Source of the DNA: a virus
IMG/VR virus record: IMGVR_UViG_3300020526_000086
Coordinates: 1 to 41,097 of that record
DNA length: 41,097 nt
Strand: one strand, 5' to 3'
Made by a program: the position numbers and the translations under genes. The notes under the pieces were generated by a model that was given only the letters and a program-made list of their open reading frames with translations, made no database searches and was not told the DNA's origin. Below, piece by piece: positions 14,161 through 19,704 of the stretch (position 1 is its first letter; each line of letters starts with the position of its first letter).

Positions 14161-14931
14161 ATGGCAGGACAAGGAGCAGGATATCCTGAGATTGGTCCAC
14201 TTTATATGTCAACAACTTTGCCTAGAGTAAATCCTACTCTTGCTGGAGCAATAGATGTTTTTGGTGCCTTATCTCAAACAAGTCAATTTAAAGTATCTCT
14301 ACACTTGACTAATGGGCAAGGTGGATTGGATGGTGGTGACACTGAATTAATGACTTGGTTAAAAGATGCAAATTTAACTAGAGATCCAGCACAAAATACA
14401 TATTATGATTTCTTTTGTTCAGAGGCATCTCTCCCTGGAGCAACTTTTGACGTTACCGAAGAATCGGGAAGTCGTCAAGGAGTAATTGAGAAATTCCCAA
14501 TGAGAAGAATATATCCAGAGTTTACGATGACTTTTTATGTCGATAATGATTATCGATTAATAAGATTATTTGAAGAGTGGATGAATTATATAAATCCAGT
14601 ATATACATCTGGTGGAATATATCCAGTATCAGATAAAGGGCAGGGAGGAGCAAAGGATAGAGACAATTTCTTTAAAGTAAGATACCCAAACACATATAAG
14701 AGAATTATTTCTATAACCAAATTTGAAAGAAATTTTAGGGAACAGCCAGGAACTTCTGGAGGAGCACTTGGAAATCTTCCCACTATAACCTATAGAATGA
14801 TTGATGCTTTTCCTACCAATATTACTGCTCTACCATTATCATATGAAGGTTCAACAATAACAAAAACTACCGTGACATTTGACTATTCAAGATACGTTAT
14901 CGAAAGAAATGAAGGAACGATACGTCCATAA
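14161..14931 (+). CDS. 54: Baseplate tail-tube initiator gp54
   Basis: gp54 sits on gp48 and nucleates polymerisation of the tail tube. The 256-residue product has a tail-tube-like core: FKVSLHLTNG, YYDFFCSEASLPGATFDVTE, then MRRIYPEFTMTFYVDNDYRL and IRLFEEWMNYINPVY, a pattern also seen in gp19-type tube proteins, followed by YPNTYKRIISITKFERNF and IDAFPTNITALPLSY. The first plus-strand gene after the divergent gap, it has a weak ribosome-binding site and no clear plus-strand late box. Confidence 0.82.
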   Translation: MAGQGAGYPEIGPLYMSTTLPRVNPTLAGAIDVFGALSQTSQFKVSLHLTNGQGGLDGGDTELMTWLKDANLTRDPAQNTYYDFFCSEASLPGATFDVTEESGSRQGVIEKFPMRRIYPEFTMTFYVDNDYRLIRLFEEWMNYINPVYTSGGIYPVSDKGQGGAKDRDNFFKVRYPNTYKRIISITKFERNFREQPGTSGGALGNLPTITYRMIDAFPTNITALPLSYEGSTITKTTVTFDYSRYVIERNEGTIRP

Positions 14932-14962: not shown

Positions 14963-15691
14963 ATGCCATTACCAAAAATATCTGCTCCAACATATGAGTT
15001 GGATTTGCCTTCATCTGGAAAGACTATAAAATATAGACCATTTTTAGTAAGAGAAGAAAAAATACTTATTCTTGCATTAGAAAGTCAAGATACAAAACAA
15101 ATTACTACTGCAATTAAGCAGGTGCTAAAAGAGTGTATTATTACAAAGGGAATTAAAGTTGAGGAACTCCCAACTTTTGATATTGAATATATTTTCTTAA
15201 ATGTCAGAGGCAAATCTGTTGGAGAGAGTATTGATTTAATTGTTACTTGTTATGATGACGGAGAAACTCAAGTTCCCGTTACTGTTTATATTGATGAAGT
15301 AAAAGTACATAAAGACCCCAACCATAAGGTAGATATACATCTTGATAGTAAATTGATTTTGAGGATGAAATATCCATCATTAGACCAATTCATTAAAAAT
15401 AATTTTGATTTTAGTTCAGCACAAAGTGAGTCAAATATCGAAAAGTCTTTTGATATCATTGCATCTTGTATTGATATGGTTTACAATGATGAAGATTCTT
15501 GGGCGGCATCAGATTGTACGAAGAAAGAATTGGTTGAGTTTATAGAACAAATGAATTCTAACCAATTTAAACTAATTGAAACTTTCTTTGAAACAATGCC
15601 AAAATTATCTCATACGATTACTGTTAAAAATCCAAAAACAGGTGTTGAAAATACAGTTAAGTTGGAAGGACTAACAAGTTTTTTCGGTTAA
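14963..15691 (+). CDS. 26: Baseplate hub assembly protein gp26
   Basis: The 242-residue product matches the T4 gp26 family (T4_baseplate): YELDLPSSGKTIKYRPFLVR, EEKILILALES, then LPTFDIEYIFLNVRGKSVGE. In T4 gp26 is required for hub assembly. Its place directly before two large tape-measure-like genes is that of the tail assembly chaperones of other tailed phages. Codons 15680-15685 (TTT TTC) with the preceding T form a slippery heptamer, and gp51 follows in the -1 frame, so a fused longer product is possible. Confidence 0.88.
   Translation: MPLPKISAPTYELDLPSSGKTIKYRPFLVREEKILILALESQDTKQITTAIKQVLKECIITKGIKVEELPTFDIEYIFLNVRGKSVGESIDLIVTCYDDGETQVPVTVYIDEVKVHKDPNHKVDIHLDSKLILRMKYPSLDQFIKNNFDFSSAQSESNIEKSFDIIASCIDMVYNDEDSWAASDCTKKELVEFIEQMNSNQFKLIETFFETMPKLSHTITVKNPKTGVENTVKLEGLTSFFG
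15664..15685 (+). promoter_or_regulatory. Candidate -1 ribosomal frameshift site
   Basis: T TTT TTC (15679-15685) is a canonical X XXY YYZ heptamer in phase with gp26, six bases from its stop. GGAAGGA (15664-15670), eight bases upstream, is a Shine-Dalgarno-like stimulator, as in dnaX. After a -1 slip the frame reads CGG TTA ATT ATG and continues through gp51 without a stop. Confidence 0.6.
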
Positions 15692-15693
15692 TT

Positions 15694-15873
15694 ATGGCTC
15701 ATATGGAACTTGAGTCATATTTTAGAATTAACTTTGCCTTGATGCAGTTCCATAAATACTCATTGACTGAGATTGAAAATATGATGCCTTGGGAACGTGA
15801 TATTTACGTTGGATTATTGCAACAGCATATAGAAGAAGAAAAGTTGAAACAACAACAAGCAAATGCCAGTTAG
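15694..15873 (+). CDS. 51: Baseplate hub assembly protein gp51
   Basis: The 59-residue product (FRINFALMQFHKYSLTEIEN, then MMPWERDIYVGLLQQHIEEE) matches the short proteins annotated as gp51 in cyanophages. In T4, gp51 has a catalytic role in hub assembly and is much longer. The MPWERDIY block resembles the carboxy part of tail assembly chaperones made by frameshifting. The ATG is two bases after the gp26 stop with no good ribosome-binding site, and the frame is exactly -1 relative to gp26. It overlaps the next gene by eleven bases. Confidence 0.75.
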   Translation: MAHMELESYFRINFALMQFHKYSLTEIENMMPWERDIYVGLLQQHIEEEKLKQQQANAS

Positions 15874-17734
15874 TTCCCTGCTATCACCAGAAAAAATTGT
15901 AGGAGGAAGAAGAGTATCTCTGGATTCCTTTCAGAACTTTGTTTCTGGTGGTGCTCCACTTGGGAGTTCTGTTGTTTCTAGTGCGGCAAATAATGTTGTA
16001 GGTTTTCAAAGAGCATCTGTTAGACCAGTAACACCTGATTTAAGTTCAATTGTTAACACAATTTCTTCAAATATTCTTAGTCAGGTTTCTAGCCAGATAG
16101 AAAGTGTAACTAATATAACCAATAAAAATGTAGATGCAAAAGTACAGCAGGTTCGTTCAGAGGTAACTAGAGAGATACAACCTCTTTACACGAAGCAAGA
16201 AAATAATATAACACAATTACAGTCTGCTGTTACCAATATAACTCAACAGGCAGACTCTACTATAACTAAACTTGTTGAAGAATATAGAAAAAAAGTTTCT
16301 GAAGTTGATGACGCAAAACCAACTGGAATTCTTGGAAACTTCTTAAAAGTTTTCAAAGGTGCTTTAGACTTTATTCAGTTTTTTGCAAGTAAGAAAAATT
16401 TAGATAATTTAGATTCAAATCTAAAGTCATTACAAAAAATATTTACAGATAGTTTTGAAGTAGCAAAACTAATTAGAAATACTATTAATAAAATAGTTGG
16501 ACAATTATCAAATCTTCCTAAAGCATCACCATCCGGAAGTCCAGGATTAAATATTGATTTAAAGGTTCCCGAACAAGGATTAAAACAAACTGCCCCAAGA
16601 GGAATGGGGAACTTAATGAAAAAAGGTGGGATGTTTGCACTTGGTGCTGGTGGATTAGCAGCAGGAGCAGGTGTAGTTAATGCTCTTTCTGATACAGGAG
16701 TTGCACCCGTTCAACAGCAACCAGGATTCCTTGGAGGATTAGTCGAGGGTCTTGGTGGAATTGTTGATTCATTTACTTCTGCAGTTAATAGTCTAATCAA
16801 AGGTTCTAATGATAAGTCTGGAGGAACTTCTGGTGGAGGAGGAGGTGGTGGTGGATCCAAAACTGGTCCTGCTAGTGCTCCTTCTGCTCCTCCCGGTGGT
16901 CCTAGTTCTAGTGGGAAAGTAGATACTAGTAAAATCTCAGGAGATACTCCAGAACAAAAAGCATTTCTTGCGACTGTGGGTTCAACAGAAGCAGGAACTT
17001 ATAATACAATTGTTGGGGGTCAGCAAATACCAGAACTTACTAAAATGACTATACAGGAAGTTTATGATATGGGTATGAAATCTCCAATAATGAGTGGTAA
17101 ACTTCCAGATAGATTTGGAGGAAGACCCATTAAGTATGGAGCAGATTCCCATGCTATGGGAAGGTATCAATTTATACCACAAACTATGATGAGTGCAATG
17201 AAGTCTGCGGGACTTAACCCAACAGACTTATATAGTCCGGAGAATCAAGATAAAATGGCTTTGGCATTTGCAACTACAATTGGTATAGATGTAAATAGAC
17301 CAATGACAGAATCTGACTACAAAAAGGCAGGAAGTAGTGTTGCTTGGGAAGGTATGAGAAAAATATCTTATACTGAAGCTAAAAAACGTTATGATAAGTA
17401 TTTAACACAAGTTCGTTCGGCAACAAAAGGTCAAGGTGGTCCCGATTTACCAGATTGGAAATTATCACCAGAAAAGAGAGAAGAATTAAAAAATATGGCA
17501 ACTAAGGTTGCTCAGCCACCACCATCCCAAGCAGCACCAAGTGTAAATGTGATGCCATTTGATTTCGGCACACAGATGCCACAACAGAAATCTTCTGGTT
17601 CACAATCCCCATCTTCTGGTCCTGCGGCACCTGCTGGAGCACAAGGTCCAACTGCACCATTTTTACCTGCAGGAAACCCAGACAATTTCCTAATTCTTTA
17701 CTCAAAAATAATCTATAATATTGTTGACGGATAA
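15863..17734 (+). CDS. Tail protein with coiled coil and GH104-like lysozyme domain
   Basis: The 623-residue product begins with a long helical/coiled region (residues 60-210, for example ITNKNVDAKVQQVRSEVTRE). A glycine-rich hydrophobic stretch follows (MFALGAGGLAAGAGVV, about 255-275), then a Gly/Ser/Pro linker (315-350). A lytic domain follows: KAFLATVGSTEAGTYN with candidate catalytic Glu 376, IVGGQQIPELTK, MGRYQFIPQTMM (432-443) and LYSPENQDKMALAFA, resembling lambda endolysin R (GH104). It would cleave glycan strands. Its position after gp26/gp51 and its layout are those of a tape-measure or hub-associated protein. The stop overlaps the next ATG by one base. Confidence 0.8.
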   Translation: MPVSSLLSPEKIVGGRRVSLDSFQNFVSGGAPLGSSVVSSAANNVVGFQRASVRPVTPDLSSIVNTISSNILSQVSSQIESVTNITNKNVDAKVQQVRSEVTREIQPLYTKQENNITQLQSAVTNITQQADSTITKLVEEYRKKVSEVDDAKPTGILGNFLKVFKGALDFIQFFASKKNLDNLDSNLKSLQKIFTDSFEVAKLIRNTINKIVGQLSNLPKASPSGSPGLNIDLKVPEQGLKQTAPRGMGNLMKKGGMFALGAGGLAAGAGVVNALSDTGVAPVQQQPGFLGGLVEGLGGIVDSFTSAVNSLIKGSNDKSGGTSGGGGGGGGSKTGPASAPSAPPGGPSSSGKVDTSKISGDTPEQKAFLATVGSTEAGTYNTIVGGQQIPELTKMTIQEVYDMGMKSPIMSGKLPDRFGGRPIKYGADSHAMGRYQFIPQTMMSAMKSAGLNPTDLYSPENQDKMALAFATTIGIDVNRPMTESDYKKAGSSVAWEGMRKISYTEAKKRYDKYLTQVRSATKGQGGPDLPDWKLSPEKREELKNMATKVAQPPPSQAAPSVNVMPFDFGTQMPQQKSSGSQSPSSGPAAPAGAQGPTAPFLPAGNPDNFLILYSKIIYNIVDG

Positions 17735-19704
17735 TGGCAAAAACAATTTCTTCACCCTTAGTTGCTGCTGCTAATTCCATTTCCTCAATGGGAAATACTT
17801 CCAATAAAAATTTTGCGGAGGTAAAAAAAAGTTATAAAGGTTTAATTGACTTTTTAGATATTAATGTAGAGCAGATTGAATCAATAAAATTACCAAAACA
17901 AAATAAAATAAAAGAATTAGCAAATATAAACATTGCATCAAATTTTGGTTCTGCTGGAAACCTTTTAAGAAATCTTGCTTCTGGTGCATTTGATGCTGCT
18001 AGTTTTGTTAGTAACTTTTTCCCAGGTGGTGGTGATGTAGGTAAACCAAAAGGTCCTGCAGGAAAACCAAAAGCACCAACTGCTCTGGGTTCAAAATTAA
18101 GATTTAGTGGATTCAGATCAATTGGAATTGCAAATGCTATTTTTGCTGGACTTGATTTTGCAACTGGTCTCAAGGAAGGTGAAAGTGTAGGAAAAGCAGC
18201 AGCAGGAGCAGGTGGTTCTCTTGCTGGTTCATTACTGGGTGGAGCAATTGGGCAAACACTTATTCCAATTCCAGGAGTTGGATTTGTTCTTGGTAGTATG
18301 GCAGGTGGACTACTTGGTGGTTATGCTGCAGATAGAGCAGTTGAAGCAACATCAGGAAAACCAGACATACAGAAAAAACAAGAAGAAAGATTAAAGGCAC
18401 AGGAAGAACGTCAAAAAGCACTAACACAAGATGACAAAAGAGTTCCTTCTCTTCTAAGAAGATTTTCAGAAACTGTTGATAGTTTTGAAAAGTTTGCCAA
18501 CCAAACATTTAGGTCTGTTATGACTGCTGCTGGTGCAGAAGATATGCCAATGGATTATGGTATAGATTCATCTATTCTTCCTAGTCCAGAAGAGATGCCA
18601 GGAGAGTTGCAAGATATAAGAGCAGAAGGGGGGGAATTACCAAGTAAAGAAGTTTCATCTTCATATGGTTGGAGATGGGGAAGGATGCATAGTGGAGTTG
18701 ATTATCCAAGACCAAATGGTCTCCCAATAAGTGTAATTCAACCAGGAAAAGTATCTCAAGCAGGTTGGATTGATGGTTATGGTTATTCGGTAACAGTTTC
18801 TCATCCAGGAGGAACTGCTAGTTTTTATGCTCATATGAGTAAAATAAATGTTAAGAGTGGTCAGGCAATTGAACCTGGAACAGTAATCGGTAATGTTGGA
18901 AGTACGGGTAGATCTACAGGACCACACGTTCATTTTGAAGTTCTTAGAGGTGGAAAACCAGTATCAATACCAAATAATGAAGGTGACAAATATTTTAGAT
19001 TTGGAGGAAATGTAAAAGTTGTCTCCAAAAAACCAGCAGGAATGCAATCTGGAGCACCAACAGCAGTAATAACAGCAGGAAATACTGATACTGATCCAAA
19101 AAAAGCTGCCGAAAATATTAAAAAATCTATTGAAGAACTAAAGAGTAAGGGATATAATGTAGTTATTGTTCCACCGTCTCAACAACAAGGTGGTGTTGGA
19201 GCAGCAATAGAAAAAACAGCAAAGCAGTCCGGTGCTACTGTAGAAAAAGTATCCAATATGGATACAACTTCAATGAAGTCATTGCAGGAAAAATACAAAG
19301 GAGCAAGATTTATTGGAGATGGAAATAAAGGCAGTGAGAATATATTGCAACAAATTCAATCAATGCAAAAAGTAAGAGCAGTTGGTGGATCGGAATTTGA
19401 TATTAACTCAATGACTCCAGAACAAATACAAGAATATCAACAATATGTTATGGGTGTTCCTACTAATCAAATGGTTCGAGCAGTTGAATCATACCCAGCA
19501 TATAATGCACCAGGACAATCTTCTATAACTTATATACCAATTATGATGGGTTCTTCTGGTGGAGGTTCTTCACCCCAGAGACCAGTAATTATATCAGGTG
19601 GAGGTGGTGGAGGAGGAACAGTTATTCTTCCAGGACCAACAGAAGGACAAGTGGTAAATAGTTTAATGAAAACTATGTTGTTAACTAATTTATCAGGTTC
19701 ATAA
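17734..19704 (+). CDS. Tail protein with M23 endopeptidase domain
   Basis: The 656-residue product has a short helical start, then a glycine-zipper hydrophobic region (about 155-200, AGGSLAGSLLGGAIGQ and GVGFVLGSMAGGLLGG) suited to cross a membrane. A charged coiled segment follows, then an M23/LytM zinc endopeptidase (about 310-415): HSGVD with His319 and Asp323, FYAHMS, and HVHFE with His398 and His400. It would cut peptide cross-links of peptidoglycan. The rest has an alpha/beta stretch and Gly-rich loops. It overlaps both neighbours by one base and probably works with the preceding GH104 protein in wall penetration. Confidence 0.83.
   Translation: MAKTISSPLVAAANSISSMGNTSNKNFAEVKKSYKGLIDFLDINVEQIESIKLPKQNKIKELANINIASNFGSAGNLLRNLASGAFDAASFVSNFFPGGGDVGKPKGPAGKPKAPTALGSKLRFSGFRSIGIANAIFAGLDFATGLKEGESVGKAAAGAGGSLAGSLLGGAIGQTLIPIPGVGFVLGSMAGGLLGGYAADRAVEATSGKPDIQKKQEERLKAQEERQKALTQDDKRVPSLLRRFSETVDSFEKFANQTFRSVMTAAGAEDMPMDYGIDSSILPSPEEMPGELQDIRAEGGELPSKEVSSSYGWRWGRMHSGVDYPRPNGLPISVIQPGKVSQAGWIDGYGYSVTVSHPGGTASFYAHMSKINVKSGQAIEPGTVIGNVGSTGRSTGPHVHFEVLRGGKPVSIPNNEGDKYFRFGGNVKVVSKKPAGMQSGAPTAVITAGNTDTDPKKAAENIKKSIEELKSKGYNVVIVPPSQQQGGVGAAIEKTAKQSGATVEKVSNMDTTSMKSLQEKYKGARFIGDGNKGSENILQQIQSMQKVRAVGGSEFDINSMTPEQIQEYQQYVMGVPTNQMVRAVESYPAYNAPGQSSITYIPIMMGSSGGGSSPQRPVIISGGGGGGGTVILPGPTEGQVVNSLMKTMLLTNLSGS

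Follow-up and report, generated by a model that had tools for sequence, protein, structure and literature searches.

A probable single gene with a −1 frameshift for the tail assembly chaperones gp26 and gp51 of T4-like phages, and its counterpart in two paralogous genes of T4

The adjacent genes gp26 and gp51 in the analyzed DNA very probably form one gene that, judging from its sequence and that of its relatives, is expressed by a −1 frameshift as a short and a long tail assembly chaperone. The window, that is, the whole stretch of DNA studied, is an uncultivated viral contig of 41,097 bases, whose nearest annotated relatives at the gp26/gp51 locus are T4-like cyanophages. The locus contains the following features.

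14161..14931, plus strand: tail-tube-like gene 5′ of gp26 (PF23849, phrog_45).
14963..15691, plus strand: gp26, 242 aa, the short, TAC-N-like product; PF12322/phrog_150, homolog of T4 gp26.
15664..15670, plus strand: GGAAGGA, Shine–Dalgarno (SD)-like putative stimulator, ending 8 nt 5′ of the heptamer.
15679..15685, plus strand: slippery heptamer T TTT TTC in the gp26 phase (X XXY YYZ).
15685..15873, plus strand: −1-frame extension past the slip, 62 codons plus stop; TAC-NC-like together with gp26.
15693..15719, plus strand: candidate stimulatory hairpin with a 7-nt spacer and a 9-bp stem (15693-15701/15711-15719).
15694..15873, plus strand: gp51 in its usual annotation, with 59 aa, a start ATG at 15694, and no SD; phrog_634 (7e-28).
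15863..17734, plus strand: gene 3′ of gp51, 623 aa, overlapping the gp51 end by 11 nt.

In the proposed mechanism, most ribosomes would terminate at TAA and release gp26 as the short chaperone TAC-N. A minority would slip by −1 on T TTT TTC, aided by the upstream SD-like element and the downstream hairpin, and would produce the 303-aa gp26-51 protein, TAC-NC. Both forms would assist in building the tail core (tape measure, hub, and tube), like G/GT of lambda, and would not be retained in the virion. The frameshift ratio, the binding partners, and the chaperone action are what we infer for this system.

The 3′ end of gp26 reads AGT TTT TTC GGT TAA. An initial annotation, made from the window alone, had noticed an in-phase T TTT TTC and placed it six bases before the gp26 stop. 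The phase and the X XXY YYZ pattern are as described; the distance applies to the start of the TTC codon, located 6 nt before the stop, and not to the end of the heptamer, located 3 nt before it. The other elements noticed at that stage, GGAAGGA eight bases upstream and gp51 lying open in the −1 frame from the slip site, are both present: the −1 frame is free of stops up to the gp51 stop codon at 15871-15873. The residues across the slip junction of the predicted fusion are TSFFRLIMAHMELE.

To this window we compared 80 IMG/VR relatives with gp26, supplemented by scans from S-RSM4, AS-zj, SFP10, and phiM19, so that the gp26 end could be read at 265 loci; these relatives were collected by similarity to chosen queries, and thus the proportions of clades among them are not population frequencies. 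Among the IMG/VR relatives, xxT TTT TTC or TTT TTT is kept in all 79 with a readable junction, and wherever gp51 could be located among them, the −1 phase is maintained. In the complete set, an in-phase T TTT TT[C/T] followed by an open −1 frame was observed at 248 of 265 loci, and the 17 loci without the heptamer all are Ackermannviridae-like or belong to Vibrio K493. The slip site is also found in phiM19, PhiW-14, AS-zj, D484, VS1, S13, phiAS5, VmeM-32, Astolliot, SRB7757, and LG08. Hence alignment of the junction, suggested earlier for other cyanophages, demonstrates conservation of both the heptamer and the −1 phase far beyond close relatives.

Clustering at 90% nucleotide identity left 125 non-redundant heptamer-bearing sequences, in all of which the −1 frame stays free of stops for 58 codons or more. 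The codon preceding the slip ends in T in every one of them, although seven different codons are used (AGT, AAT, TCT, GAT, GCT, CAT, and ACT). All 125 have TTT as the first Phe codon; as the second, 116 have TTC and nine have TTT. Elsewhere in gp26, TTT accounts for 70% of Phe codons and NNT for 38% of codons, and TTTTTTN in phase occurs 11 times in 29,555 codons, compared with 125 of 125 at the slip place. At the first Phe codon, none of 7,528 pairs has a synonymous difference, against an expected 36%, and the three slip codons have the lowest synonymous variation among 238 windows of the gene, a result to be read as a ranking and not as a p-value, since the compared pairs share ancestry. The synonymous-site test on these 125 sequences thus indicates selection on the heptamer beyond the amino-acid need. 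One could suppose that the site is conserved only for the Phe-Phe end of gp26, which is nearly invariant in the protein, and that no frameshifting occurs. This explanation is hardly credible, as the invariant TTT and the invariant preceding NNT far exceed their frequencies in the rest of the gene.

Several variants of the site were observed. In L224, L243, and their relatives, the zero-frame stop is shifted 10 codons downstream, and the slip site and the −1 frame are retained. Rhizobium phage RL38J1 (L285, around 2145) has the slip T TTT TTG, the heptamer of P2, inside an annotated repeat region. In addition to the 17 loci mentioned above, Pseudomonas phage Cygsa01 (L286) is devoid of the canonical heptamer. 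This locus, those of Ackermannviridae (L088, L178-L192), and Vibrio K493 (L086) share the arrangement [AC]TT TTC, one codon, TAA, and keep a gp51-like −1 frame; the Ackermannviridae junction reads ATT TTC ATT TAA. In SFP10, no ATG, GTG, or TTG precedes the conserved part of the gp51-like −1 frame.

The candidate stimulatory elements differ between clades. In the clade of the window, 49 of 61 non-redundant sequences have GGAGG or GAGGG at a fixed distance of 9-10 nt 5′ of the heptamer, compared with 2.3% in control windows. Sequences of the S-RSM4 clade usually lack the SD. Their heptamer is followed, after 7 nt, by a 9-bp hairpin, and 98% of its cells are paired across 28 sequences. Covariation in this hairpin exceeds all 500 shuffles (0/500), and MA10 and L177 build the same stem from different letters. 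A possible stem is seen at the same place in the window's own clade (by direct count, 86% of cells are paired across 22 relatives); covariation there is weak, RNAalifold predicted no consensus pairs for this clade, and the hairpin is a weakly supported candidate.

These elements also bear on the enzyme responsible. In principle, it could be RNA polymerase and not the ribosome that slips to give the fusion, since the site consists of six or seven consecutive T. Transcriptional slippage normally requires longer runs. Here the run stays short and ends in C in 116 of 125 sequences, and the codon phase, the SD at fixed spacing, and a hairpin at a ribosome-type distance are features that act on ribosomes. 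Transcriptional slippage is therefore very unlikely, and slippage of the ribosome is the preferred explanation.

The other question is whether the T run could be incidental and gp51 a small protein in its own right, started through re-initiation or translational coupling at the ATG that follows the gp26 stop by two bases. Annotators do treat gp51 as a gene of its own, and in the 63 relatives with a gp51 ATG this codon is found at +2 in 52 cases, as in the window, and overlaps the gp26 stop in seven. Because the window has this ATG 2 nt after the gp26 stop, independent or coupled initiation may be an extra route to gp51. As the sole explanation it is unlikely. The first 12 codons past the slip contain no ATG in 60 of 125 sequences (the window has one) and none of ATG, GTG, or TTG in 34, yet the frame is coding: in 48 of the ATG-less sequences, 76% of differences in the interval from the gp26 stop to the first ATG fall at third positions of −1 codons. 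These patterns argue that the −1 frame is translated upstream of any start codon in such relatives. An SD-like 4-mer accompanies the gp51 ATG in only one of 63 relatives, compared with 40 of 116 gp26 starts; its absence from the other 62 bears out the early impression that gp51 has no good ribosome-binding site. Re-initiation also leaves the lack of synonymous differences in the slip codon unexplained. Frameshifting by −1, as initially proposed, is supported by all four lines of evidence, namely the start-less relatives, the synonymous constraint, the SD element, and the covarying hairpin.

In the S-RSM4 record, the annotated gp51 start falls within the conserved part, and the N-terminal part of gp51, containing FRIALFHNTLEGYYK, has no ATG ahead of it. 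The gp51 of AS-zj, VmeM-32, and S13 is unannotated though encoded by the −1 frame; in AS-zj and VmeM-32 (Emmerichvirinae) it is an open −1 frame without a usable start. None of the gp26/gp51 records compared has a joined frameshift annotation, whereas the P2 E+E′ record does.

The phage T4 has 26 and 51 as separate genes, a fact already raised in the initial annotation. T4 gp26 and T4 gp51 are both assigned to PF12322 and phrog_150. We built profiles of the gp26 and gp51 families without any T4 sequence. The gp26 profile matches T4 gp26 (E=6e-20) and also residues 15-202 of T4-type gp51 (E=1.4e-12), and the gp51 profile matches the C-terminus of the latter, residues 203-246 (E=3.8e-7). Given these adjoining ranges, the joint in T4 gp51 coincides with the frameshift site. 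Judged from these comparisons, T4 gp26 and T4 gp51 are paralogs, gp26 being the short form and gp51 a covalent gp26-51 fusion. As a consequence, T4 would obtain from two genes what the phage of the window makes by frameshifting, and the separate status of the T4 genes is true without contradicting a frameshift elsewhere. In T4, 26 and 51 are adjacent and divergently transcribed, and in RB43 they lie in tandem on one strand; in both, a frameshift is needless. A review lists T4 gp26 and gp51 both as hub assembly chaperones, and it describes gp51 as required, yet absent from the final particle. Homology to these two proteins supports the tail assembly chaperone assignment made at the outset.

The simplest history would be a duplication of the frameshift gene in the T4 line. 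In RB43 (L287:1501-2794), gp51 is fused, gp26 is short, and their genes overlap in tandem ahead of a gene-25-like gene, possibly a snapshot of the duplication. Members of Straboviridae outside the T4 subgroup, namely VS1 (Vibrio), phiAS5, S13 (Cronobacter), VmeM-32, and AS-zj, keep the frameshift form, so that a single virus family comprises both states.

Structural comparison gave a hint only. No PDB chain matching gp26 or T4-type gp51 was found by sequence. The AlphaFold model of gp26 has a pLDDT of 86, and its fold was found in many large myophages in BFVD; against the PDB, Foldseek returned nothing significant for it or for a second model. The HK97 gp13 tail assembly chaperone (2OB9) appeared at ranks 4 and 13 with non-significant scores (E=1.5-2.4, probability 0.18-0.25; E=1.5 at rank 4).

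The gene upstream of gp26 (14161-14931) is nameless in many cyanophages and matches a tail tube family (PF23849, phrog_45). Downstream, 15863-17734 and 17734-19704 are consecutive large tail genes; both have long helical stretches, and a lysozyme-like part is present in one and an M23 peptidase domain in the other. One of them may be the tape measure gene. The product of 15863-17734, with its long helical N-terminus and lysozyme-like part, might have this role; in phiM12, it is the second gene past gp51 whose annotation notes similarity to tape measure proteins.

A similar organization is known from other tailed phages. In lambda, a −1 shift close to the 3′ end yields the short and long chaperones G and GT, and the virion contains neither of them (PMC5009743). 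The gp26/gp51 pair would likewise have a short and a long product with a −1 shift close to the 3′ end. In P2, also a phage with a contractile tail, E and E+E′ come from a short gene directly before the tape measure gene, by a −1 shift at T TTT TTG. No sequence similarity was found between lambda G and gp26, nor was any detectable between P2 E/E′ and gp26/gp51; a scan with P2 E returned near-identical copies only. A look-alike motif (HKYSLTEIENM / HWPPSELYPM) was examined and rejected as not significant (hhalign probability 1.3%, P=0.04). In phage Adele (Vandenendeviridae), TAC-N has a T-run slip site, and the downstream ORF had been misannotated as a separate gene (PMC12846349). Its motif is GTTTTT and it belongs to another phage family, whereas gp26/gp51 has T TTT TTC.

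The 2025 Adele paper describes poly-T −1 signals as a known feature of TAC-N genes in T4-like phages, and Vladimirov, Gautam, and Davidson 2022 (Virology 566:9-15) is cited there both for this and for T4-like TAC genes with their TAC-N and TAC-NC isoforms (PMC12846349). Because of this citation, the core idea has probably been published, though Vladimirov et al. 2022, judging from its title, argues for a non-frameshifting mechanism. The searched literature yielded no description of gp26/gp51 frameshifting, the prior art being represented in it by the cited reference to Vladimirov et al. 2022. A 2016 review described G-T frameshifting as conserved among long-tailed phages, T4 excepted (PMC5009743).

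Taken together, it is likely that the −1 frameshift is ancestral for the long chaperone in this large T4-like branch and that many members have lost a separate gp51 start. In the same reading, stimulators are clade-specific, with an SD in the clade of the window and a hairpin in the S-RSM4 clade, and the line of T4 and RB43 swapped the frameshift for a gene duplication, one copy being short (26) and the other fused (51). A genome comparison of 2010, in which frameshifting is unmentioned, reported cyanophage gp51 to be devoid of the first ~200 residues and Aeh1 to have no gp51 (PMC3037559). The frameshift would explain the shortness of cyanophage gp51, the missing ~200 residues being gp26. It may also explain the absence of gp51 from Aeh1, whose relatives AS-zj and VmeM-32 hide gp51 as a start-less −1 frame.
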